Shown: piece after piece, positions 486 through 14,403 of the stretch
How positions within the stretch are numbered: the stretch's first letter is position 1
Layout of the letters: every line of letters begins with the position of its first letter
Translations under genes and position numbers: made by a program
Notes under the pieces: model-generated
Databases searched by the model: none
What the model saw: only the letters and a program-made list of their open reading frames with translations
What the model was told of the DNA's origin: nothing
NCBI GenBank assembly: GCA_002335115.1
Contig: DDCR01000057.1
Location: 1 to 22,758, forward strand
Length of the DNA stretch: 22,758 bases
Direction: 5' to 3'
From: Oceanospirillaceae bacterium UBA2001
Lineage (GTDB): Bacteria; Pseudomonadota; Gammaproteobacteria; Pseudomonadales; Balneatricaceae

Positions 486-1214
486 TTGGAGTTTGATTTG
501 GTAAAGGTATTTAATAGTGAGGGCCAAGCCCCAATTTTGCTAGTGTGTGAACACGCTACTAATTTTATTCCAGCTCTTTTTAAAGACTTGGGTTTGACTC
601 CGACACAGTTGCAAAGCCATATTGCTTGGGATCCTGGTGCCATTGAGACGGCTGAAGCGATGGCTGAAATACTTGATGCACCCTTGATTTCGGCCACTGT
701 TTCACGCTTGATTTATGATTGTAACCGGCCGCCTGATTCGGCCACAGCCATGCCTTTGACATCAGAAAACCAGATCATCCCTGGTAACGTTGATCTGGCA
801 GAGACGTCAAAGCAGCAGCGCGTGACCAACTATTATCGTCCATTCGAAGCCGCTTTGTCTGAGCGCGTGGTGTTAATGGGCATGCCCCTCATGATCACGG
901 TGCACTCCTTCACACCTGTTTTTTTAGGCGAGCATCGACAAGTAGAAATAGGGGTGTTGCATGATGAAGATAGCCGTTTTGCTGATGCATTTTTACAACA
1001 GACGCTCACAGATAGTCGCTTTAATATTCAGCGGAATCAGCCATATGCTCCTACCGATGGTGTTACCCATACATTAACACACCATGCCTTACCCCATGGA
1101 TTAGCTAATGTGATGTTAGAAATTCGTAATGACCTAATAGCATCACCTTTACAACAACAAGAGATGGCAGCTTATCTTGCTAAACACATCGTCTTGGCGT
1201 TAGAGAGAATATAA
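486..1214 (+). CDS. N-formylglutamate amidohydrolase-family protein
   Basis: A 242-residue cytoplasmic hydrolase of the N-formylglutamate amidohydrolase family (PF05013). The family hydrolyses N-formyl or related amide bonds using a metal, as HutG-type enzymes do in histidine breakdown. Visible family motifs are CEHATNFIP near residue 21, HIAWDPGA near residue 45, SRLIYDCNRPP near residue 73, TVHSFTP near residue 139 and LEIRNDL near the C-terminus. No histidine-utilisation gene is nearby, so a role in the local oxidation operon is more likely than in histidine catabolism. The start is uncertain. The frame is closed upstream by TAA at 459-461 and contains no ATG before the conserved region, so TTG at 486 is proposed, without a good ribosome binding site. 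An ATG at 478 is out of frame and soon hits a stop. The stop codon abuts the ATG of the next gene, so the two are cotranscribed. Confidence 0.8.
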   Translation: MEFDLVKVFNSEGQAPILLVCEHATNFIPALFKDLGLTPTQLQSHIAWDPGAIETAEAMAEILDAPLISATVSRLIYDCNRPPDSATAMPLTSENQIIPGNVDLAETSKQQRVTNYYRPFEAALSERVVLMGMPLMITVHSFTPVFLGEHRQVEIGVLHDEDSRFADAFLQQTLTDSRFNIQRNQPYAPTDGVTHTLTHHALPHGLANVMLEIRNDLIASPLQQQEMAAYLAKHIVLALERI

Positions 1215-2606
1215 ATGTCCAACAAACAGCAGGTTATATCACCCATTGACGGTAGCGTTTATCTTGAACGAAATTATGCTCAACCTAAACAGGTCGACCT
1301 TGCCTTAGGCCTAGCTAGTCGGGCACAAAAACAATGGTGCCATAGCTCCCTTGCTGAGCGTAAAGCTCTGTGCCGTGATGCTGTGAAAGCTTTTGTATCA
1401 AACAAAGAGACTGTTGCTCAAGAGCTATGCTGGCAAATGGGACGCCCGATTAGGTATGCAGCAGGAGAGGTGAATAGCTTTGCTGAACGAGCAGAGTACA
1501 TGATTGATCATGCTGATATGGCCTTAGCTCCCTTGCAGCAAGAGGAAAAAGCCGGGTTTATACGCTATATTCGCCGAGAACCAGTGGGTGTGGTCTTAGT
1601 CGTAGCACCGTGGAACTACCCCTTACATACTCCTATCAACGTCATAGTGCCGGCTTTGTTGGCAGGCAACAGTGTCATTTTAAAACACTCTAGCCAAACG
1701 CCCCTGTGTGCCGAGCGAATCTGTCAAGCTTTTGCTCAGGCAGGCCTGCCGGAGGGTGTATTACAATACTTACACATGGACCACCAATCGACGGAAGCAC
1801 TGGTGGCATCTGGTCAGGTCAATCACGTAGCCTTTACGGGTTCGGTGGCAGCGGGTCGAAAGATTGAAGTGGCAGCTGCTGGCCAGTTTATAGGTCTGGG
1901 CCTAGAATTGGGTGGTAAAGATCCGGCCTATATCCGTGCAGATGCAGATTTGGACTATGCCATTGAATCTACCGTTGATGGAGCCTTTTTTAATTCTGGA
2001 CAATCATGCTGTGGTTTAGAACGTATTTACGTACACGAGTCAGTTTATGACGCTTACGTAGCTGGGTTTGTTGCCTTAACCAAGGCTTTTAATTTGGGCC
2101 GTTCCGATGATCAAAATACAACTCTGGGTCCCATGGTGCGCGCATCGGCTGCTGACTTTGTGCGCCAGCAAATTGTTGAAGCCCTTGACCAAGGCGCAGA
2201 AGCTCATATTGATCCCAAAGCATTTCTGATGGACCAGCCTGGGAGCCCCTATATGGCGCCTCAAGTACTGACTCAGGTTGATCACCGTATGCGGGTGATG
2301 ACTGAAGAGAGTTTTGGACCTGTGGTTGGTATTATGAAAGTGGCTAATGATGAAGAAGCCATCGGCTTGATGAATGATAGTGACCTAGGTCTTTCTGCCG
2401 CTATTTTCACCCAAGATATCGACACTGGTATGGCCTTGGGTGACCGAATAGAAACAGGCACGTTTTTTATCAATCGTTGTGATTATCTAGATCCTGCGTT
2501 GGCTTGGACTGGGGTCAAAAATACTGGACGAGGCTGCACCTTATCAAGTTTAGGATTCGAAGCCGTGACGCAGCCTAAGTCCTACCACATTAAAATTAAG
2601 CTATAG
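1215..2606 (+). CDS. NAD(P)-dependent aldehyde dehydrogenase
   Basis: A 463-residue aldehyde dehydrogenase that oxidises an aldehyde to a carboxylic acid with NAD(P)+. The catalytic set is complete: PWN with Asn134, LELGGKDP with the general base Glu231, and GQSC with the nucleophile Cys265 (followed by Cys266). The C-terminal stretch CDYLDPALAWTGVK followed by GRGCTLS resembles, from memory, the ALDH family 21-like group often found beside GMC oxidoreductases. Its ATG directly follows the stop codon of the upstream hydrolase, and the GMC dehydrogenase starts 8 bases downstream. The likely substrate is therefore the aldehyde produced by that dehydrogenase, by analogy with BetA/BetB in choline oxidation. 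Sequence alone does not identify the aldehyde; betaine aldehyde is one possibility. Confidence 0.88.
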   Translation: MSNKQQVISPIDGSVYLERNYAQPKQVDLALGLASRAQKQWCHSSLAERKALCRDAVKAFVSNKETVAQELCWQMGRPIRYAAGEVNSFAERAEYMIDHADMALAPLQQEEKAGFIRYIRREPVGVVLVVAPWNYPLHTPINVIVPALLAGNSVILKHSSQTPLCAERICQAFAQAGLPEGVLQYLHMDHQSTEALVASGQVNHVAFTGSVAAGRKIEVAAAGQFIGLGLELGGKDPAYIRADADLDYAIESTVDGAFFNSGQSCCGLERIYVHESVYDAYVAGFVALTKAFNLGRSDDQNTTLGPMVRASAADFVRQQIVEALDQGAEAHIDPKAFLMDQPGSPYMAPQVLTQVDHRMRVMTEESFGPVVGIMKVANDEEAIGLMNDSDLGLSAAIFTQDIDTGMALGDRIETGTFFINRCDYLDPALAWTGVKNTGRGCTLSSLGFEAVTQPKSYHIKIKL

Positions 2607-2614
2607 AGTGATTT

Positions 2615-4234
2615 ATGGACACATTTGATTACATTATTGTCGGTGGCGGTTCAGCGGGTTGTGTGGTGGCTAATCGATTAAGTGCGGACCCAGACGTGAG
2701 CGTCTGTTTGATTGAAGCAGGCGGCAATGGCAAAAGTCCTTGGGTGAGTATTCCTGCAGGTATTTTTGGCTTATATGGTAATAAGAAATACGACTATAGC
2801 TTTGTCACTGTGCCACAAAAGCATTTGTGTAATAGGGTTATGGATGTCAACCGGGGTAAAGCACTGGGTGGGTCTAGTGCGATTAATAGCATGGTTTACA
2901 TGCGTGGTAACCGTAATGACTATGACGGCTGGGCTGCCTTAGGTTGTGAAGGCTGGTCTTATAATGAGGTATTACCTGTCTTTAAAAATATGGAGGCCAA
3001 TCAGATTGGTCAAAGTGCTGAATACCATGGATTTGAGGGCGAGTTAAGCGTGTCTGAACAGCAGGACGCAAATTCTGTGGGCAAAGTGTTTGTTGCGGCG
3101 GGTCAAGTTGCGGGGTTACCAGAAAATACAGATTTTAATGGCCCGTCGCAATTGGGCTTAGGCATTTATAATGTTAAACAAAACCGTGGTCAAAGGGTGA
3201 GTAGTTATACGGCCTTTTTGCAGCCCGTTGAAAACCGCAGTAATCTCACAATAATGACTCACACCCAAGTATTGGAATTAGACATTGTAGACCAAAAAGT
3301 ATTGGGTCTGACAATTGAAAAGGCGGGTGTAAAGCAGCAGTTGCAGTGCAAAAAAGAAGTCATTCTTTGTGCAGGTACAATTTTGTCACCGCGTATTTTA
3401 ATGGCTTCAGGCATCGGTAATCGTGACGAACTGGATCAATTAGGTATTGACTGTAAACATCATGTGCCTGGAGTGGGAGAGAACCTTCAGGACCACATCG
3501 ACAGTATGGTCACCGTTAGGTCAGCTAAAGCTGAGTCTATCGGGGTGTCGCTTAAAACTTTATTACCTCATGTGCTGCCAGCACCCTTAAAGTATCTTTT
3601 GGGTCGCAAGGGCTGGTGGACCACTAATTATGTTGAGGCGGGTGGTTTTGCCAAAACTAAGTTAGCTGAGGCTGACGACACAGACGCTGATGTACAGTTT
3701 CATTTTACACCACTATATCGTAGTCATCGAGGCAAGAAGTTTGAATGGGGCCATGGCTATTCAGTGTTTACCTGTGTTTTGCGTCCCCTTAGTAAGGGTA
3801 GTGTTAAATTGGCAAATGATGGGAGTAGGCGCAATGTTGAGATTGATTATAATTTTTTTGCCCACTCACATGACCAACAAACGTTGGTAGAGGGAGTGAA
3901 AAAGGCGCGTCAAATACTGGCGTCATCTGAGTTTGATCATTTGCGAGGTGAAGAGATGGCACCCGGAAAGGCGGTTCAAACAGATGCTCAAATTCTTGAG
4001 TATCTGCGCCGCACTGCCTCGACTGTATACCACCCTGTGGGTACCTGTAAAATGGGAACTGATGCCATGGCCGTAGTGCATCCAGCCACCCTAAAAGTGA
4101 CGGGCATGGATAATTTGCGGGTGATGGATGCGTCTATTATGCCAAGCTTGACCAGTGGGAACACCTCCGCGCCCACCATGATGATTGCTGAGCGCGGCGC
4201 CGCTATGGTGTTGGCAGAACAGCAGGGTCAATGA
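2615..4234 (+). CDS. GMC-family FAD oxidoreductase (choline dehydrogenase-like)
   Basis: A 539-residue glucose-methanol-choline flavoprotein that oxidises a primary alcohol to an aldehyde. The N-terminal dinucleotide fold IIVGGGSAGCVVANRL binds FAD. GKALGGSSAINSMVYMRGN is the GMC signature 1 region, and GTILSPRILMASGIG is signature 2. The catalytic pair is visible as His473 in HPVGTCKMG and Asn516 in SGNTSAPT, matching the His/Asn arrangement of choline oxidase. Length fits the family (530-570). The overall pattern resembles BetA, but GMC enzymes of this type act on many alcohols, so choline is only a candidate. It lies between the aldehyde dehydrogenase (8-base gap) and the DadA-like gene (13-base gap to the start chosen here), in one operon. 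Confidence 0.9.
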   Translation: MDTFDYIIVGGGSAGCVVANRLSADPDVSVCLIEAGGNGKSPWVSIPAGIFGLYGNKKYDYSFVTVPQKHLCNRVMDVNRGKALGGSSAINSMVYMRGNRNDYDGWAALGCEGWSYNEVLPVFKNMEANQIGQSAEYHGFEGELSVSEQQDANSVGKVFVAAGQVAGLPENTDFNGPSQLGLGIYNVKQNRGQRVSSYTAFLQPVENRSNLTIMTHTQVLELDIVDQKVLGLTIEKAGVKQQLQCKKEVILCAGTILSPRILMASGIGNRDELDQLGIDCKHHVPGVGENLQDHIDSMVTVRSAKAESIGVSLKTLLPHVLPAPLKYLLGRKGWWTTNYVEAGGFAKTKLAEADDTDADVQFHFTPLYRSHRGKKFEWGHGYSVFTCVLRPLSKGSVKLANDGSRRNVEIDYNFFAHSHDQQTLVEGVKKARQILASSEFDHLRGEEMAPGKAVQTDAQILEYLRRTASTVYHPVGTCKMGTDAMAVVHPATLKVTGMDNLRVMDASIMPSLTSGNTSAPTMMIAERGAAMVLAEQQGQ

Positions 4235-4247
4235 CAGTGATAACGAC

Positions 4248-5501
4248 ATGAATGAGCTTCCTTCAAAACCACAGGACGTGATAATTATTGGTGCTGGCTT
4301 TGTCGGTATAGCCACCGCAATGTGGTTACAAAAAAGTGGCCATAAAGTCACGGTAGTGGATCCAGAGCCTTTTGCTCAAGGGGCTTATTTTGGTAATGCC
4401 TGCACCATAGCAACCTACGCTAATATTCCTGTGGGTACGCCGAGTACCATGAAACAGTTACCACAATTATTGTTCAATGCTAATAGCCCTTTGTCGATTA
4501 ATGGGACTTATCTGCCTTGGCTTTTGCCATGGTTGTTAAGGTTTGCTTGGGCTAGTCGTCCTCATAAAGTAGCGTATATTGGGTCTCAATTAGGCATGTT
4601 GCTAAGTCAAGCACATAGTGCGTTAGTACCCCTGATTGAAGCGGCACAAGGTTCTGATTTGGTTAAAAAAAATGGAACTTTATATTTGTATGCTAGTGAG
4701 GCTGGTTTGGTTAAAGCCCAACCAGACATTGCCTTAAGGCGTCGCAATGGGATCGCTGTGACCGAGTTAACTAAGTCTGAGATTAGCGATTTAGAACCCC
4801 ACTTGAATCCAATCTATGAGCGTGGGTTGTGGTTTGAAAATGCCCAACACCTGCTCAACCCCTTAGATTTGTTAAAACGCATGGGGGCATCAGTGGTGGC
4901 CAATGGGGGACAAATTGTCACCAACAAGGCCATGGGTATTAAGCGCATTAGTATTGATACGCTTAGAGTGCAGTTACAAGACACCAGTATTCAAGGCCAA
5001 AAAGTGGTAGTGGCCGCAGGTGCCTGGTCAAAGGGCTTGGCGCAGCAAGTGGGGGATACATTGCCTTTAGATACGGAGCAGGGGTATCACCTGATGTACA
5101 AGGGCGCAGAACAATTACTTAATCGGCCTGTGGGTTGGGCTGACGTGGGGTTTTATATGACGCCGATGAACGAAGGCTTGCGGGCAGCGGGCACAGTGGA
5201 ATTGGCAGGCCTTAACAATGCAGCCAATCCAAAGCGTTTACAGCTCATCGCTAAGACCATGAAAACTCTTTTGCCACAGCTTAAAAGTCACGACAGTGAG
5301 TGGACTGGTTTTAGGCCATCTATGCCCGACTCTATGCCTGTTATAAGTCAATCTAGTAAAGACACGGGGGTTTATTACGCTTTCGGTCATGGCCATATCG
5401 GGGTGACATTATCCGGTATTACGGGCAAGTTGATTAGTGAAATGATTGATGGAAAAACACCGAGTATGGACATTGCTGCCTTCTCAGCGCAGCGTTTCTA
5501 A
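4248..5501 (+). CDS. DadA-like FAD-dependent amine/D-amino-acid oxidoreductase
   Basis: A 417-residue FAD oxidoreductase of the DAO fold (PF01266). IIIGAGFVG at residues 12-20 is the FAD-binding loop. The following region, GAYFGNACTI, then PVGTPSTMKQLP and the LPWLLPWLLRFAWAS segment, matches the layout of DadA small-subunit-type D-amino acid dehydrogenases. TGFRPSMPDSMPVI and FGHGHIGVTLS near the end are also typical. It should oxidise a C-N bond of an amine or D-amino acid and pass electrons to the respiratory chain. The frame is open back to 4185 inside the GMC gene, but the ATG at 4248 sits 13 bases after the GMC stop and puts the FAD motif at the usual distance from the N-terminus. The substrate is unknown; hydroxyproline, sarcosine-like and D-amino acid substrates all remain possible. 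Confidence 0.82.
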   Translation: MNELPSKPQDVIIIGAGFVGIATAMWLQKSGHKVTVVDPEPFAQGAYFGNACTIATYANIPVGTPSTMKQLPQLLFNANSPLSINGTYLPWLLPWLLRFAWASRPHKVAYIGSQLGMLLSQAHSALVPLIEAAQGSDLVKKNGTLYLYASEAGLVKAQPDIALRRRNGIAVTELTKSEISDLEPHLNPIYERGLWFENAQHLLNPLDLLKRMGASVVANGGQIVTNKAMGIKRISIDTLRVQLQDTSIQGQKVVVAAGAWSKGLAQQVGDTLPLDTEQGYHLMYKGAEQLLNRPVGWADVGFYMTPMNEGLRAAGTVELAGLNNAANPKRLQLIAKTMKTLLPQLKSHDSEWTGFRPSMPDSMPVISQSSKDTGVYYAFGHGHIGVTLSGITGKLISEMIDGKTPSMDIAAFSAQRF

Positions 5502-5517: not shown

Positions 5518-6138
5518 TCAAGTTGGGGTCCTTCTTTGGGTGACAGGTAATCCTGATATGGTCCCTTCTTTGATGACGGTTGGTGCATAGGCTTTGCGAC
5601 TGAATACGCGCTCTAAAAATGGTTTAAAAAAGGCTAAGGGTTGGCTGTCATAATGTGGGTCAAAGCAGTTTTGATCCCAGCGTTCACAAAAATCAACCGC
5701 AGTTTGATAATAAGCATGACTATGGTAACGATCACGTTCATTGGGGTTCCAGCCTGCTAAGTGATGGGCGTAGTAGATCATTTGAAAAGCACCATGATGC
5801 TCTACAACCCAAGTGACTTCCTCACTGACGAAAGGTCGTATTATTTCTGCTGCCATGCGGTCGTGATTCTGTGGGGCCAAACCGTCGCCGATATCGTGTA
5901 GTAAAGCAGCCACAACCCAATCATCATTAGCTCCCTCGCGCCAAGCTCTGGTTGCAGATTGCAAACCATGTTCCAAGCGGCTTATGGCATATCCCTCTAT
6001 GCTTTGGTGACCCTGTCGCTCGAGTTGTTCATATAATCGATGTGCCGTTTTGGCATTGAACTCATGCTCGAACTCTTGCAATATGGCGTAATCTTCTTGG
6101 GTGCCATGTTTCATTTCGGTAAAGCTGACGGTGGCCAT
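5518..6138 (-). CDS. HD-domain protein, putative PhnZ/TmpB-like diiron oxygenase
   Basis: A 206-residue HD-domain protein. The metal ligands expected of the PhnZ/TmpB/inositol-oxygenase group can be placed: His57 in LEHGLQSA, His81-Asp82 in ALLHDIG, His92 in QNHD, His115 in EHHGAF and Asp155 in ERWDQ. These enzymes use a mixed-valent diiron centre and O2 to cleave a C-P or C-C bond next to a hydroxylated carbon. Against the PhnZ sequence as I recall it, the substrate-side residues differ: the Tyr-x-x-Glu before AI-QLEH is replaced by Ile-Glu-Gly-Tyr (47-50), and the phosphonate-contacting Lys four residues after the fifth ligand is Gln119. An oxygenase on a different substrate, or an ordinary HD phosphohydrolase, are both possible. 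The ATG at 6138 has GGAG 8 bases upstream. It follows the PhyH gene by 19 bases in the same unit. Confidence 0.75.
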   Translation of the reverse strand: MATVSFTEMKHGTQEDYAILQEFEHEFNAKTAHRLYEQLERQGHQSIEGYAISRLEHGLQSATRAWREGANDDWVVAALLHDIGDGLAPQNHDRMAAEIIRPFVSEEVTWVVEHHGAFQMIYYAHHLAGWNPNERDRYHSHAYYQTAVDFCERWDQNCFDPHYDSQPLAFFKPFLERVFSRKAYAPTVIKEGTISGLPVTQRRTPT

Positions 6139-6157
6139 GGCCTATACTCCAGATCTT

Positions 6158-7006
6158 TTATTGATTATCACCTTGAATACGCTTAAGTTTTGTATGCAGA
6201 GATTGCTGCCTTAGCCATGCTTTTTTATCAAAATTGCTGAGGGCCGGCTGGTCTGTTTGAAAGTGACCATAGTCATCCACGCCACGCACTAATATAGCAG
6301 AATCTTGTTGCTGTTTTAATTGTTTTACCACGGGATTAATGTATTGAATATTGAGTCCAATACGACGGTCATCACTGACATTGGGTTTGGAGCAATGCAG
6401 GGTCCACCCGTGATGAAAAGAGGCTTGGCCCGCAGTGAGGCTAACCACTACACTTTCGTTGGCGTTTACGCCTTGGACCGTTTGGCCACTTAGCAACACA
6501 TTATTAGCATCTTCTGTGGTGTGATGCTTTTGTTGCCCATTGATGTGGCTGTTGGGTATCATATGCATGCAACCGCTGGCCTCGCTAGCTTCAGATAACG
6601 CCAACCAAACACTGACCTGAGCGTCAGAATCTAAGCCCCAATAAGTCAGGTCTTGATGCCAACTGACGTGGCTTTCAGTATGGGCTTCTTTGATGATATA
6701 GGTGGTGTTGTAAAGCAATATATTTGGCCCTATCAACTGTTCAATAACATCAAGTAGCTGAGGTAAGGTTGCCAGTTTAAAGGGTGAGTTCATGGCCGTG
6801 TGAATTTTGAATTGGTAGTGCATTGGACCACGCTCGGCTTCAACGGCTTCCAAAATGGAGCGATGGGCCAAGGCCTCCTTTGGATTAATAATGGGCACCG
6901 CCGTTAAAAAACCTTGTGCATCATAAAGTGACTTTAAACAATCTTTCACGGTCAAACTCCATTGCCATTCATGTAGGATACTGCCATTTTTCCAAATAGC
7001 TGACAA
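6158..7006 (-). CDS. PhyH-family Fe(II)/2-oxoglutarate dioxygenase
   Basis: A 282-residue (maximum) phytanoyl-CoA dioxygenase-family enzyme (PF05721) that hydroxylates an unactivated carbon with O2 and 2-oxoglutarate. The iron triad is visible: His117 and Asp119 in SWHQDLTYWG, and His204 in WTLHCSKPN. Arg214/Arg215 in SDDRRIGLN is the expected 2-oxoglutarate anchor. ASGCMHMIPNSH is the usual mid-domain motif. It is first in a two-gene unit with the HD protein, the arrangement of phnY-phnZ and tmpA-tmpB. It lacks the ectoine hydroxylase motifs. No ATG is available at the N-terminus: the frame is closed by TAG at 7013-7015, TTG at 7006 has no ribosome binding site, while GTG at 6949-6947 has GGAG 7 bases upstream. 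The protein may therefore be 263 residues, though the extension includes a helix (SLTVKDCLKSLY) that fits the family. Confidence 0.85.
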   Translation of the reverse strand: MSAIWKNGSILHEWQWSLTVKDCLKSLYDAQGFLTAVPIINPKEALAHRSILEAVEAERGPMHYQFKIHTAMNSPFKLATLPQLLDVIEQLIGPNILLYNTTYIIKEAHTESHVSWHQDLTYWGLDSDAQVSVWLALSEASEASGCMHMIPNSHINGQQKHHTTEDANNVLLSGQTVQGVNANESVVVSLTAGQASFHHGWTLHCSKPNVSDDRRIGLNIQYINPVVKQLKQQQDSAILVRGVDDYGHFQTDQPALSNFDKKAWLRQQSLHTKLKRIQGDNQ

Positions 7007-9823: not shown

Positions 9824-10822
9824 ATGCAAAATTTATCCCATCCGAAAATTCAATTGGGCCATTGGCCCACCCCTCTTGAGCCTTTACTGCGCATTAATGA
9901 GATGCATAAAGGACCCGAGTTGTGGGTCAAGCGAGATGATTGCTCAGGGCTTGCCTTTGGTGGTAATAAAACCCGTAAATTAGAATACTTGTTAGGGGAC
10001 GCTCAGCTAAAAGGAGCGACTACACTGCTCACTGCTGGAGGCTTGCAATCTAACCATGCTCGGCAAACGGCTGCCGCTGCTGCTCGAGTGGGTCTGGGTT
10101 GTGAGTTATTTCTGGAACATGTAGAAGGAGTATCAGAGAAGGATTATAACCACTCTGGTAATCTGCTACTGGATCAATTGCTTGGAGCACGACTGCATCG
10201 TTTGCCAGCAGGGCAAGATTTGGATGCCGCCATGGCTTTGCGTGCTCAAACTCTGGATGCTTTGGGTCAAGTGCCCTATGTGATGCCTGTAGGTGGCAGT
10301 AATGTGATCGGTTCAATGGGCTATGTTGAATGTGGTTTAGAATTGACCCAACAAATACAACGACAACAACTCAGCTTTGATGCCATTGTTTTAGCCACGG
10401 GCAGCGCTGGAACTCAAGCGGGTTTATTGGCAGGTTTGGCGTTGGCTGGAATAGATATACCCGTATTAGGAATAACCGTCAGTCGGGCGAGTAGTGAGCA
10501 ATGTGAAAAAGTGTTGACCTTGCTGCACCAAGTCCAAGAGTCACTGCAGCAACCTGAGTTAAATGCAGATCATGTTATTTGTTTCGACCAATATTATGGT
10601 TCAGGTTATGGTGACCCAACGCCCGCTATGATCGAGGCTGTTCGCCTTGCGGCAAGCTTAGAGGGATTGTTGTTAGATCCTGTTTATTCGGGCAAAGCCT
10701 TTGCGGGCTTACTTGATTTAGTTCGTCATGGCTATTTTGATACCTCCGAGCGTATTCTGTTTCTTCATACAGGTGGTGCGCCAGGGTTATTTGCCTACAG
10801 CGAATGTCTAAGTGAACACTAA
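9824..10822 (+). CDS. PLP-dependent D-cysteine desulfhydrase/ACC deaminase-family enzyme
   Basis: A 332-residue fold-type II PLP enzyme. The cofactor lysine lies in GGNKTRKLEYL, and the phosphate or substrate loop in GGLQSNHARQTAA. PVGGSNVIGSMGYVE, ATGSAGTQAG, LLDPVYSGKAFAGL and LFLHTGGAPGLFAY are family signatures. Relatives are D-cysteine desulfhydrase (D-cysteine to pyruvate, ammonia and sulfide), L-cysteate sulfo-lyase CuyA (sulfite release) and ACC deaminase. The HTGGAP end and ITVSR segment favour D-cysteine desulfhydrase; WVKRDDCSGL and the DLDAAM stretch recall CuyA, so both stay open. The ribosome binding site AAGGGA is 6 bases before the ATG. It is convergent with the LysR gene. A sulfur product would fit the sulfur transporter genes nearby, but they are not in one operon. 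Confidence 0.82.
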   Translation: MQNLSHPKIQLGHWPTPLEPLLRINEMHKGPELWVKRDDCSGLAFGGNKTRKLEYLLGDAQLKGATTLLTAGGLQSNHARQTAAAAARVGLGCELFLEHVEGVSEKDYNHSGNLLLDQLLGARLHRLPAGQDLDAAMALRAQTLDALGQVPYVMPVGGSNVIGSMGYVECGLELTQQIQRQQLSFDAIVLATGSAGTQAGLLAGLALAGIDIPVLGITVSRASSEQCEKVLTLLHQVQESLQQPELNADHVICFDQYYGSGYGDPTPAMIEAVRLAASLEGLLLDPVYSGKAFAGLLDLVRHGYFDTSERILFLHTGGAPGLFAYSECLSEH

Positions 10823-11915: not shown

Positions 11916-13349
11916 ATGAGCCAAGTCCAAATGAACTACATTGCTGGGGAGTGGGTAGAAGGTGAATCAACCGTTAATAATATTAACCCTTCAAATCACA
12001 GTGAACTAGTGGGTGAATTTGCTCAAGCGTCAACGGCTCAAGTTGATCAGGCTATAAATGCTGCTCGTCAGGCACAGTTAGTTTGGCAGGCTACTGGCTT
12101 AGAAGCTAAGCAGCGTGTGCTACAGGCGATTGGTGACGAAATGATTGCTCGTTGTGACGAGCTTGGTGAAGTACTTTCCCGTGAAGAAGGCAAACCACGT
12201 GCAGAAGGCCGAGGTGAAGTTTACCGGGCGGGTCAGTTCTTTCAGTATTATGCAGCGGAAGTTTTAAGACAGATGGGTGATACTGCAGACTCGGTGCGTC
12301 CGGGTGTGGAAATTGAAGTTCGACGTGAACCCATGGGAGTTGTAACAGTCATCAGCCCTTGGAATTTCCCCACGGCCACTGCTTCTTGGAAAATTGCGCC
12401 AGCCTTAGCTTTTGGTAACGCAGTCATCTGGAAACCAGCGAACCTAACCCCTGCCAGTGCAGTCCTATTGACTGAAATAATAGCGAAGCAAGATATTCCT
12501 GCGGGACTATTTAATTTAGTCATGGGTGCGGGTGCTAGTGTGGGCGAAAAACTTATTAATTCAGACGGCATTGATGCTATTTCATTCACAGGCTCTTTGG
12601 CTGTGGGTAAACGAGTCGCTGTAGCTGCGGCTGGCAATCTCACCAAATTTCAACTCGAAATGGGTAGTAAAAATGCCTTGGTAGTTTTGGATGATGCAGA
12701 CTTAGATAATGCTGCAGATTGTGCCGTTAATGGTGCCTTTGGCGGTTCAGGTCAGAAGTGTACAGCGTCTTCTCGTTTAATTGTGACTGCAGGGGTGCAT
12801 GATGCGTTTGTTGTTAAAGTGCAAGAACGTATGGCCAAGCTCAAGGTTGGTGGGGCGTTAGAAGAAGGGGTCACTATTGGCCCCGCCGTAGATGCTAAGC
12901 AATATGCACAAAATAAAGAATATTTTAAGTTAGCCCAAGACGAAGGCGCTCATCTGGTTTGTGGTGGTGAATTTGATGATAGTAAGGGTTATTTTATGAC
13001 ACCAGCATTATTTACCAATACGACTAATGCAATGCGTATTAATCGAGATGAGGCTTTTGCTCCTCTGGCCTGTGTTATTAAAGTGGCAGACTATGATGAA
13101 GCTTTGACGACTTTAAACGATACGCAGTATGGTCTGACCGGCGGTATTTGCACAACTTCGCTAAAGTATGCGACACACTTTAAGCGGCATGCTAAAACGG
13201 GCTGTGTGATGGTTAATTTGCCTACTGCGGGCACCGATTACCATGTGCCATTTGGTGGCCGGAAAAACTCTAGCTTTGGTTCACGTGAGCAAGGTAAGTA
13301 TGCAGAAGAGTTCTACACTGAAGTTAAAACAACGTACATGAAGGCTTAA
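11916..13349 (+). CDS. Aldehyde dehydrogenase, 2-oxoglutarate-semialdehyde dehydrogenase-like
   Basis: A 477-residue NAD(P)-dependent aldehyde dehydrogenase with a complete active site: Asn150 in SPWNFP, Lys173 in WKPA, Glu248 in LEMGSKNALV and the nucleophile Cys282 in GQKCTASS. The Met-Gly-Ser after the catalytic Glu and the C-terminal run NLPTAGTDYHVPFGGRK-SSFGSREQG resemble 2-oxoglutarate-semialdehyde (2,5-dioxopentanoate) dehydrogenases, which end the hydroxyproline and pentose/uronate oxidation routes. The other enzymes of those routes are absent, so the substrate may be another small acidic semialdehyde. AGGAG lies 6 bases before the ATG. It is the first gene of an apparent operon divergent from the LysR gene. 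Confidence 0.88.
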   Translation: MSQVQMNYIAGEWVEGESTVNNINPSNHSELVGEFAQASTAQVDQAINAARQAQLVWQATGLEAKQRVLQAIGDEMIARCDELGEVLSREEGKPRAEGRGEVYRAGQFFQYYAAEVLRQMGDTADSVRPGVEIEVRREPMGVVTVISPWNFPTATASWKIAPALAFGNAVIWKPANLTPASAVLLTEIIAKQDIPAGLFNLVMGAGASVGEKLINSDGIDAISFTGSLAVGKRVAVAAAGNLTKFQLEMGSKNALVVLDDADLDNAADCAVNGAFGGSGQKCTASSRLIVTAGVHDAFVVKVQERMAKLKVGGALEEGVTIGPAVDAKQYAQNKEYFKLAQDEGAHLVCGGEFDDSKGYFMTPALFTNTTNAMRINRDEAFAPLACVIKVADYDEALTTLNDTQYGLTGGICTTSLKYATHFKRHAKTGCVMVNLPTAGTDYHVPFGGRKNSSFGSREQGKYAEEFYTEVKTTYMKA

Positions 13350-13419
13350 TTAGATGGATGACATTTAAATAACTTTGAAATTTGACATGGGACTAAGGCA
13401 CAGTTTTGGGGACTAGACG

Positions 13420-14403
13420 ATGAGCAAAATGATGATGATTGATGGCTTGCAATACAGTCATTGGAGCCGCCGAGTATTTGAACAGATGCGCGAGGGTGGT
13501 TTGAGTGCAGTCCATGTGACCATTGCCTATCATGAATTAAGCCGAGAGACATTGCAGAATATTGGCCAATGGAATCGTTTGTTTGAAATCCACAGTGATC
13601 TAATTATGCCTGTGCATACGGCCACGGATATTGAACTTGCCCATAGACTAAATAAAGTGGGCATTATCTTTGGTTTTCAGAACTGTTCGCCTATTGAGGA
13701 TGACATTGACCTAGTGGCGATTTTTCACCAGTTGGGTGTGCGCATTATGCAATTGACTTATAACAATCAAAGCCTCTTGGGAGCCGGATGTTATGAGTCC
13801 ACAGATGCTGGTATCTCTCGTTTTGGAAAGGTTGTTATCGAAGAAATGAATCGGGTAGGAATGGTAATTGACATGTCCCATAGTGCTGAAGAAAGCACTC
13901 TGCAAGCCATCGAACTATCACAGCGTCCTATTGTTATTAGCCACGCTAATCCAACTTTTTTTGAACCAGCTAAGCGCAATAAATCAAACAAGGTCTTATC
14001 TGCTTTGGCTGAAAGTGAAGGTTTACTGGGCTTCAGCATGTACCCCTTTCATCTTAAAAATGGCCCTAAATGCACCTTAGATGAGTTTTGCACGATGGTT
14101 GCCCAGACGGTTGATTTTATGGGTGTTGACCGAGTTGGTATGGGTAGCGACTTATGTTTAGATCAGCCCATTGCTGTTTTAGAGTGGATGCGCAATGGCC
14201 GTTGGACTAAGCAAATGGATTATGGGGAAGGTTCTGCTAGCAATGCGACTTGGCCTGATGCACTATCTTGGTTTGAAACCAGTGCCGACTTCCCTAACAT
14301 AGTTGTGGGCTTGCAGGATAAAGGTTTCAACCAATTAGAAATAGAAAAAATCATGGGCCTTAACTGGTTTGATTTCTGTGCCGCAGGGTTTGGGCCAAAA
14401 TAG
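13420..14403 (+). CDS. Membrane-dipeptidase-like protein (peptidase M19 family, altered metal site)
   Basis: A 327-residue TIM-barrel protein of the renal dipeptidase family (PF01244). His154 in DMSHS, His175 in VISHANP and Asp244 in GMGSDLC match the second metal site and catalytic Asp region. The N-terminal His-x-Asp of classical dipeptidases is missing (IDGLQYSHW at residues 7-15), and the bridging Glu is Gln87 (FGFQN), so ordinary dizinc dipeptidase chemistry is doubtful. From memory, the same IDGL-W pattern with MR-GGL and GFQN occurs in the dipeptidase-like protein beside the dimethylglycine demethylase genes dgcAB of Pseudomonas aeruginosa (PA5396). This suggests a role linked to N-methylated amine catabolism. 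The start ATG at 13420 follows GGGGA by 7 bases; it is 70 bases after the ALDH. Confidence 0.8.
   Translation: MSKMMMIDGLQYSHWSRRVFEQMREGGLSAVHVTIAYHELSRETLQNIGQWNRLFEIHSDLIMPVHTATDIELAHRLNKVGIIFGFQNCSPIEDDIDLVAIFHQLGVRIMQLTYNNQSLLGAGCYESTDAGISRFGKVVIEEMNRVGMVIDMSHSAEESTLQAIELSQRPIVISHANPTFFEPAKRNKSNKVLSALAESEGLLGFSMYPFHLKNGPKCTLDEFCTMVAQTVDFMGVDRVGMGSDLCLDQPIAVLEWMRNGRWTKQMDYGEGSASNATWPDALSWFETSADFPNIVVGLQDKGFNQLEIEKIMGLNWFDFCAAGFGPK

Follow-up and report, generated by a model that had tools for sequence, protein, structure and literature searches.

A PhyH dioxygenase and an HD-domain protein as a candidate two-step oxygenase pair with an altered substrate pocket in an Oceanospirillaceae genome

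The window analysed here is the whole stretch of 22,758 nucleotides of contig DDCR01000057.1 from Oceanospirillaceae bacterium UBA2001, and on its minus strand two intact genes lie side by side that encode a PhyH-type dioxygenase and an HD-domain protein. The two proteins might form a hydroxylate-then-cleave oxygenase module that follows the logic of PhnY-PhnZ and TmpA-TmpB but acts on a substrate other than a phosphonate, likely a methylated onium or amine osmolyte of the dimethylsulfoniopropionate (DMSP), choline or betaine type. We give this reading about an even chance. It draws on the two genes and their motifs, a predicted fold, a fixed change in the substrate pocket, a recurring pairing of the HD protein with hydroxylases of two or perhaps three kinds, and links to neighbouring genes in related genomes.

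Positions 5518 to 6138, minus strand: HD-domain protein of 206 amino acids, a candidate mixed-valent diiron oxygenase (from Pfam match, ligands, pocket and predicted fold)
Positions 6139 to 6157, minus strand: the 19 nucleotides that separate the PhyH stop from the HD start; a GGAG before the HD start resembles a ribosome-binding site
Positions 6158 to 7006, minus strand: PhyH Fe(II)/2-oxoglutarate dioxygenase, 282 amino acids when read from TTG (from Pfam match and triad)

On the minus strand the PhyH gene comes first and the HD gene follows after 19 nucleotides, so the adjacency claimed in an earlier reading of the letters without database searches (the sequence-only reading) is confirmed by the coordinates. 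The PhyH protein matches Pfam PhyH with 83.7 bits (cut-off 22), and the His-x-Asp...His triad named in that reading (H117, D119 and H204) is invariant in all 11 aligned rows, which places the protein among the Fe/2-oxoglutarate enzymes of the PhyH family as a candidate, predicted 2-oxoglutarate-dependent hydroxylase. These residue numbers follow the long reading, because the start is uncertain. The TTG at 7006 is doubtful, and a GTG at codon 20 (6949), which has GGAG seven bases upstream and would give 263 amino acids, appears likelier from the sequence; two relatives (L008 and L009) carry Met at this position of the alignment. The TmpA model NF049936 gives no match to the window's PhyH at an E-value of 0.001. 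Its closest solved relative is the monooxygenase 6zyk/6zyl (E 1.6e-31), which we take to be ThoJ of thioholgamide biosynthesis. The predicted PhyH model has a mean pLDDT of 69.9 and was kept out of the fold search.

The HD protein matches Pfam HD with 28.5 bits (cut-off 22) and belongs to a large branch, as 7,893 of the 8,000 candidates scored reach an E-value of 0.001; the best 120 were taken for listing. From 121 loci and the window, 115 rows were left after removal of identical and short sequences (85 belong to the window's class, 17 to a sister class, and 13 are more distant; the window appears both under its own name and as L090). The six diiron ligands pointed out by the sequence-only reading, H57, H81, D82, H92, H115 and D155, are kept in all of these rows. 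This set is insufficient to prove an oxygenase, since two-metal HD hydrolases exist, and most known HD proteins are phosphohydrolases, some of them with two metals, according to the excerpt of a 2020 review used here (PMC8177086). That the HD protein is a phosphohydrolase or another hydrolase, standing beside PhyH by chance, would agree with this majority. In a fold search with the predicted HD model, however, PhnZ (Z = 16.8), TmpB (15.8) and MIOX (10.9) rank first and the best other fold reaches 7.8, a result that supports an oxygenase-type fold for the predicted structure, and we regard a hydrolase as highly improbable. PhnZ and TmpB are also the only PDB sequences under E 0.001; no MIOX chain is among the five PDB matches that phmmer gives with E up to 10, although the fold does match. 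The separation from ordinary phosphohydrolases for which the sequence-only reading had proposed a phylogeny is thereby seen as a similarity ranking by sequence and predicted fold; the HD tree consists of the 115 rows with PhnZ and two TmpB as outgroup, holds no hydrolase, and sets the rows apart from this outgroup by a long branch with a support of 99.

Two side observations concern HD-related fragments. A 69-bp piece of the HD gene occurs elsewhere in the window's genome (L002, G000:C95:37939-38022) within an unrelated oxidoreductase-like open reading frame (ORF); it is identical to window 5920-5988 at 66 of 69 positions and may be a small duplication, a recombination product or an assembly chimera. 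At another locus (L034, 7632-8191), a TmpB-like sequence lies in two frames on the opposite strand, about 1.8 kb from the HD gene.

Compared with the PDB sequence of PhnZ, residues Y24, E27 and K108 correspond to I47, Y50 and Q119 of the window's protein, and the replacements named by the sequence-only reading are right. The YxxE loop of PhnZ and TmpB is absent, with I47 and Y50 in its place. Position 50 is Tyr in 109 of the 115 rows and Phe in 6, position 119 is Gln in every row, and the residue after HDxG (H62 in PhnZ) is Asp in every row, D85 in the window. We take K108 and H62 to be phosphonate contacts in PhnZ, and K127 of MIOX presumably stands at the position of H62. Across all rows examined, the alignment thus supports a fixed pocket that differs from the one in PhnZ and TmpB. 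In PhnZ, as stated in the review excerpt, the loop with Y24 and E27 is mobile; it guards the iron and also holds the amino group (PMC8177086).

These changes bear on the possibility that the pair is simply a PhnYZ/TmpAB variant for another phosphonate. PhnZ and TmpB are indeed the nearest characterised proteins, and the top NCBIfam match of the HD protein is Phn-HD (E 1.2e-13). However, its 50.9 bits compare with a cut-off of 214.6, and the next matches, 36.7 bits and 36.2 bits for the TmpB model, compare with cut-offs of 300, so that the protein falls outside the PhnZ and TmpB families. The residues at the positions of K108 and H62 are replaced in all 115 rows. Moreover, the window's genome possesses a canonical TmpA on contig C67, its sole match to NF049936 (554 bits, cut-off 400), and TmpB follows; since this system lies elsewhere in the same genome, the window's pair would be a second one. 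Of the 25 listed window ORFs, 11 were scanned with Pfam and NCBIfam, and they include no phosphonate transporter or other phosphonate gene, in agreement with the sequence-only reading. Considering the family scores, the pocket and the separate TmpA-TmpB, we judge a phosphonate role to be improbable.

The pairing of PhyH and HD genes recurs in gamma- and alphaproteobacteria, as the evidence supports. We surveyed 80 HD loci from named genomes and found PhyH immediately upstream of HD in ten, both of Oceanospirillaceae type (L004, L005, L008, L009 and L011) and alphaproteobacterial (L053 from Roseicyclus, L055, L059 from Primorskyibacter, L062 and L070); in L053, L055, L059 and L062 the two frames, with starts called mechanically, overlap by 4 nucleotides. 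A phylum sample of 398 genomes, drawn evenly, contains seven with an HD protein of at least 360 bits, and PhyH is adjacent in five of them, lies elsewhere in G183, and is represented by a distant PhyH only (149 bits) in G238. Related PhyH proteins also occur without a visible HD link: on five plasmids looked at, this holds for the surroundings of PhyH genes that are 36-51% identical to that of L053. The bare presence of PhyH was therefore dropped as a marker, and only clades I and II of the PhyH tree, which contain every adjacent PhyH included, were counted. This tree leaves out the PhyH proteins of G409, G422 and G424 (260-270 bits), and clade II includes L202 from a Ruegeria plasmid, whose genome lies outside the HD survey. 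PhyH proteins of at least 230 bits are present in 13 sample genomes; eight of these fall into clade I or II, and all eight also have an HD protein of at least 289 bits. The proteins outside the two clades belong to G071, G139, G200, G249 and G384, and G071 has a sister-class HD. With HD proteins of at least 255 bits in 22 of the 398 genomes, Fisher's test for clade I/II PhyH with HD gives 2e-11, uncorrected for kinship. Of the 70 loci without adjacent PhyH, 45 were also searched genome-wide, and 23 of these genomes had a PhyH of at least 230 bits; 20 of these were placed in the tree, 11 of them in clades I/II.

PhyH is not the only hydroxylase that accompanies this HD branch. A TmpA-like TauD enzyme lies directly upstream of HD in 12 of the 80 loci, and 11 of the 12 share the order dmdA, MFS (major facilitator superfamily), RidA, TmpA-like enzyme, HD and glutathione peroxidase, with a convergent ammonium transporter adjoining or a few kb off. 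The two upstream TauD proteins scanned with NF049936 reach 340 and 333 bits, and the three TmpA-like enzymes scanned altogether 333-348 bits, all under the cut-off of 400. Among the sister-class HD genes, a P. aeruginosa plasmid carries the series TauD (347 bits), HD, choline binding protein (a solute-binding protein), choline dehydrogenase and aldehyde dehydrogenase (ALDH), and on a Phaeobacter plasmid HD is followed by an FA_hydroxylase. FA_hydroxylases of one subfamily with at least 370 bits occur in 29 of 52 genomes with the HD branch (51 distinct ones, as G432 and G238 are identical) and in none of 28 controls without it. As this threshold was chosen post hoc (the best control has 295 bits) and the controls are unmatched by taxon, a third partner is only suggested. 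No FA_hydroxylase of this kind was found in the window's genome.

The TmpA-like partners are themselves altered. Aligned with human BBOX, whose numbering was checked against its sequence, they have Asp at the position of N191 and Ser at that of N292 in all six sequences aligned, and the TmpA of the window's genome keeps both Asn. We assume that N191 and N292 bind the carboxylate in BBOX. Together with the changes in the HD pocket, this points to an altered anion end in both partners.

The neighbourhoods of some relatives support a link of the HD loci to DMSP-, choline- or betaine-type metabolism. The gene for DddP, a DMSP lyase, immediately precedes HD in 10 of the 80 loci (cut by the contig end in L014), and the two proteins checked reach 829 and 817 bits with the DddP model (cut-off 600). 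One record with this locus (L022) is labelled Flammeovirgaceae, while the locus is otherwise seen in alphaproteobacterial records; it is probably a misplaced contig. In the TmpA-like gene order, the DmdA checked (L080) reaches 505 bits (cut-off 410), and six DmdA proteins cluster with Pelagibacter DmdA with a support of 99, in a tree for which the program warns of long branches. In two genomes with HD after dddP (G401 and G408), a clade II PhyH is the last gene of an operon for an FMN 2-hydroxyacid dehydrogenase, a thiamine pyrophosphate (TPP) lyase, a transthyretin-like protein and a DmdA-like protein (480 and 491 bits); under the same long-branch warning, this PhyH-linked demethylase falls outside the Pelagibacter DmdA clade. 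In G410 a single enoyl-CoA-hydratase-like gene separates PhyH from dddP (889 bits), and in Phaeobacter marinintestinus (L066) about 2.8 kb with further genes separate HD from dmdA. The window's genome holds the four-gene set of the G401/G408 operon without PhyH (L184, G000:C179). At L184 a CuyA-like gene (40%) lies about 2.7 kb from the set, and in G319 (L193) the set has ABC transporter genes alongside.

A match to the DmdA model above its cut-off is present in all 7 sample genomes with an HD protein of at least 360 bits vs 10 of the 391 others; five of the seven come from a single family (f55), and tandem DmdA-like copies pass the model too. Within f55, the members listed have DmdA in 11 of 11 cases with HD of at least 255 bits vs 3 of 9 without (Fisher 0.002). 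Two tandem DmdA-like genes of the window's genome (L185, G000:C161:13197-15545; 456 and 430 bits) are both above the cut-off of NF009133, and this model may therefore overcount true DmdA.

Taken as a hydroxylate-then-cleave module, the pair might work as follows. PhyH, with Fe(II), 2-oxoglutarate and O2, would hydroxylate the carbon at the bond to be cut in a methylated onium or amine compound. With an Fe(II)/Fe(III) centre, the HD protein would bind the alkoxide on one iron and O2 on the other; a four-electron oxidation would cleave the bond at the hydroxylated carbon and yield a carboxylate. We infer this metal state, the order of the steps, the bond cut (most likely C-C) and the class of substrate. 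Two forms can be envisaged. The first would be the alpha-oxidation of an onium carboxylate such as DMSP or beta-alanine betaine, which are isosteres of TmpA's substrate, and it is favoured by the 2-hydroxyacid operon and the DMSP-related neighbours. In the second, an onium alcohol would be hydroxylated to a diol and then cleaved in the style of MIOX; the choline genes of L160 and the altered anion sites favour this form. One could go further and imagine that the HD branch and its hydroxylases form a marine oxidative route for DMSP-type onium osmolytes, in which alpha-hydroxylation would be followed by removal of one carbon by the HD protein, with a product such as dimethylsulfonioacetate or a betaine. 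This is an analogy to TmpAB, which converts its phosphonate to glycine betaine, and it fits the PhyH operon of G401 and G408 with its FMN dehydrogenase, TPP lyase and DmdA-like protein as well as the set without PhyH in the window's genome; we consider it unlikely.

Several observations weigh against the proposed module and its substrate. Pairs are in the minority: neither PhyH nor a TmpA-like enzyme stands alongside HD in 58 of the 80 loci, and L006, L007 and L013, among the eight nearest relatives, retain HD at the same site without PhyH. The expectation of the sequence-only reading that the pairing be conserved in relatives thus holds across two proteobacterial classes, but not for most loci. 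At the score thresholds used, 17 of the 52 genomes with the HD branch have none of the three hydroxylase types. Like MIOX, the HD oxygenase might instead act on a natural alcohol or diol, either alone or with a variety of unrelated partners, with PhyH as a passing neighbour; the loci and close relatives without PhyH speak for this, as does a sister-class relative named 'inositol oxygenase family protein'. On the other hand, the overlapping reading frames, the repeated pairing with PhyH or TmpA-like enzymes and the presence of at least one hydroxylase type in 35 of the 52 genomes (with the post-hoc threshold for the third type) argue for dedicated partners, and MIOX is structurally farther from the predicted model than PhnZ and TmpB. 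We see a MIOX-like enzyme as a possible but rather doubtful explanation.

As to the substrate of the proposed module, the dddP link and the TmpA-like/dmdA link each form a single clade on the HD tree, DddP was not found in the window's genome, and the DmdA-model matches of this genome lie on other contigs. The dmdA-type genes have RidA and an ammonium transporter next to them, which points to a nitrogen compound and not to DMSP, and the altered anion sites appear to speak against a carboxylate. In view of these single-clade links, of a demethylase outside the Pelagibacter clade, of the nitrogen-related genes and of anion sites that would fit a less anionic substrate, DMSP was rejected as a firm substrate. 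The sequence-only reading is partly supported. The betaine-like or non-phosphonate compound that it suggested agrees with the altered, fixed pocket and with the links in some relatives. The tests of structure and of pairing, two of the three by which it could have been refuted, left it standing.

On the plus strand, four genes converge on the pair.

Positions 4248 to 5501, plus strand: FAD-dependent amine/D-amino-acid oxidoreductase (DAO), ORF listed from TTG at 4185
Positions 2615 to 4234, plus strand: GMC oxidoreductase, choline-dehydrogenase-like (555.5 bits with NF002550, below the cut-off of 605)
Positions 1215 to 2606, plus strand: ALDH, SSADH/BADH-like, under the cut-off of all 25 NCBIfam models among the matches listed
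Positions 486 to 1214, plus strand: N-formylglutamate-amidohydrolase-like protein (Pfam FGase), with only 23 bits to HutG

The stop codons of DAO (5501) and HD (5518) are 16 nucleotides apart on facing strands. As the four genes are convergent, they are neighbours of the pair and not part of one operon. DAO also adjoins the pair in L004, L005 and L011, the only relatives with the complete FGase-ALDH-GMC-DAO set; L007 and L013 have DAO and GMC, L008 and L009 GMC alone, and some of these contigs end nearby. The PhyH-HD-GMC-ALDH neighbourhood, for which the sequence-only reading had proposed a survey, was observed in Oceanospirillaceae-type relatives only, and a shared catabolic operon was dropped in favour of a local association. 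Homarine catabolism was considered for the FGase cluster, and the literature search yielded nothing usable. The genome itself comprises 2.45 Mb in 201 contigs (90% complete), and the closest named loci come from metagenome-assembled genomes of Oceanospirillaceae or Pseudomonadales, e.g. ASP10-02a.

Further along the window, positions 9824-10822 encode a pyridoxal-phosphate enzyme close to the D-cysteate sulfo-lyase CuyA (427.5 bits, below the cut-off of 450); two YeeE-type genes, assigned by eye, lie 1.4 kb away, which suggests sulfonate or sulfur metabolism. At 11916-14403 a KGSADH-like ALDH gene is followed by an M19 dipeptidase-like gene, and in L074, L080 and L082 relatives of these two are likewise next to each other, some 8 to 10 kb away from HD.

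The HD branch is distinct, has thousands of homologues and a pocket unlike the known phosphonate-binding one, and its partners and neighbours name substrates that can be tested. If the link to DMSP were true, it would add a step to a major marine flux of carbon and sulfur; if a choline- or amine-type route were true, the substrates of HD oxygenases would still comprise more than phosphonates and inositol. That the type of hydroxylase changes around a single HD branch amounts to a natural experiment of an unusual kind.

The characterised HD oxygenases named in the excerpt of the 2020 review are MIOX, PhnZ and TmpB (PMC8177086), to which NCBIfam adds a hydroxymethylphosphonate dioxygenase; in titles and abstract starts of open-licence papers we found no paper on the present branch. 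Compared with PhnY-PhnZ, which acts on 2-aminoethylphosphonate, the window's HD protein has the YxxE loop and K108 replaced and HDxGH changed to HDxGD. The alignment with PhnZ shows an 11-column gap after the HD motif, and few of the 55 positions that are invariant in 26 rows of the window's branch are common to PhnZ. MIOX shares 14% identity with the HD protein and, unlike the proposed module, works without a hydroxylase partner, as the review excerpt describes it (PMC8177086). On the side of PhyH, the closest solved relative differs in that it sits on a long branch of the PhyH tree. It presumably acts on a peptide natural product. TmpA-TmpB, which degrades 2-trimethylaminoethylphosphonate, follows the same two-step logic, and in some relatives the HD protein has a TmpA-like enzyme as its partner; the hydroxylase of the window, however, is a PhyH rather than a TauD protein.
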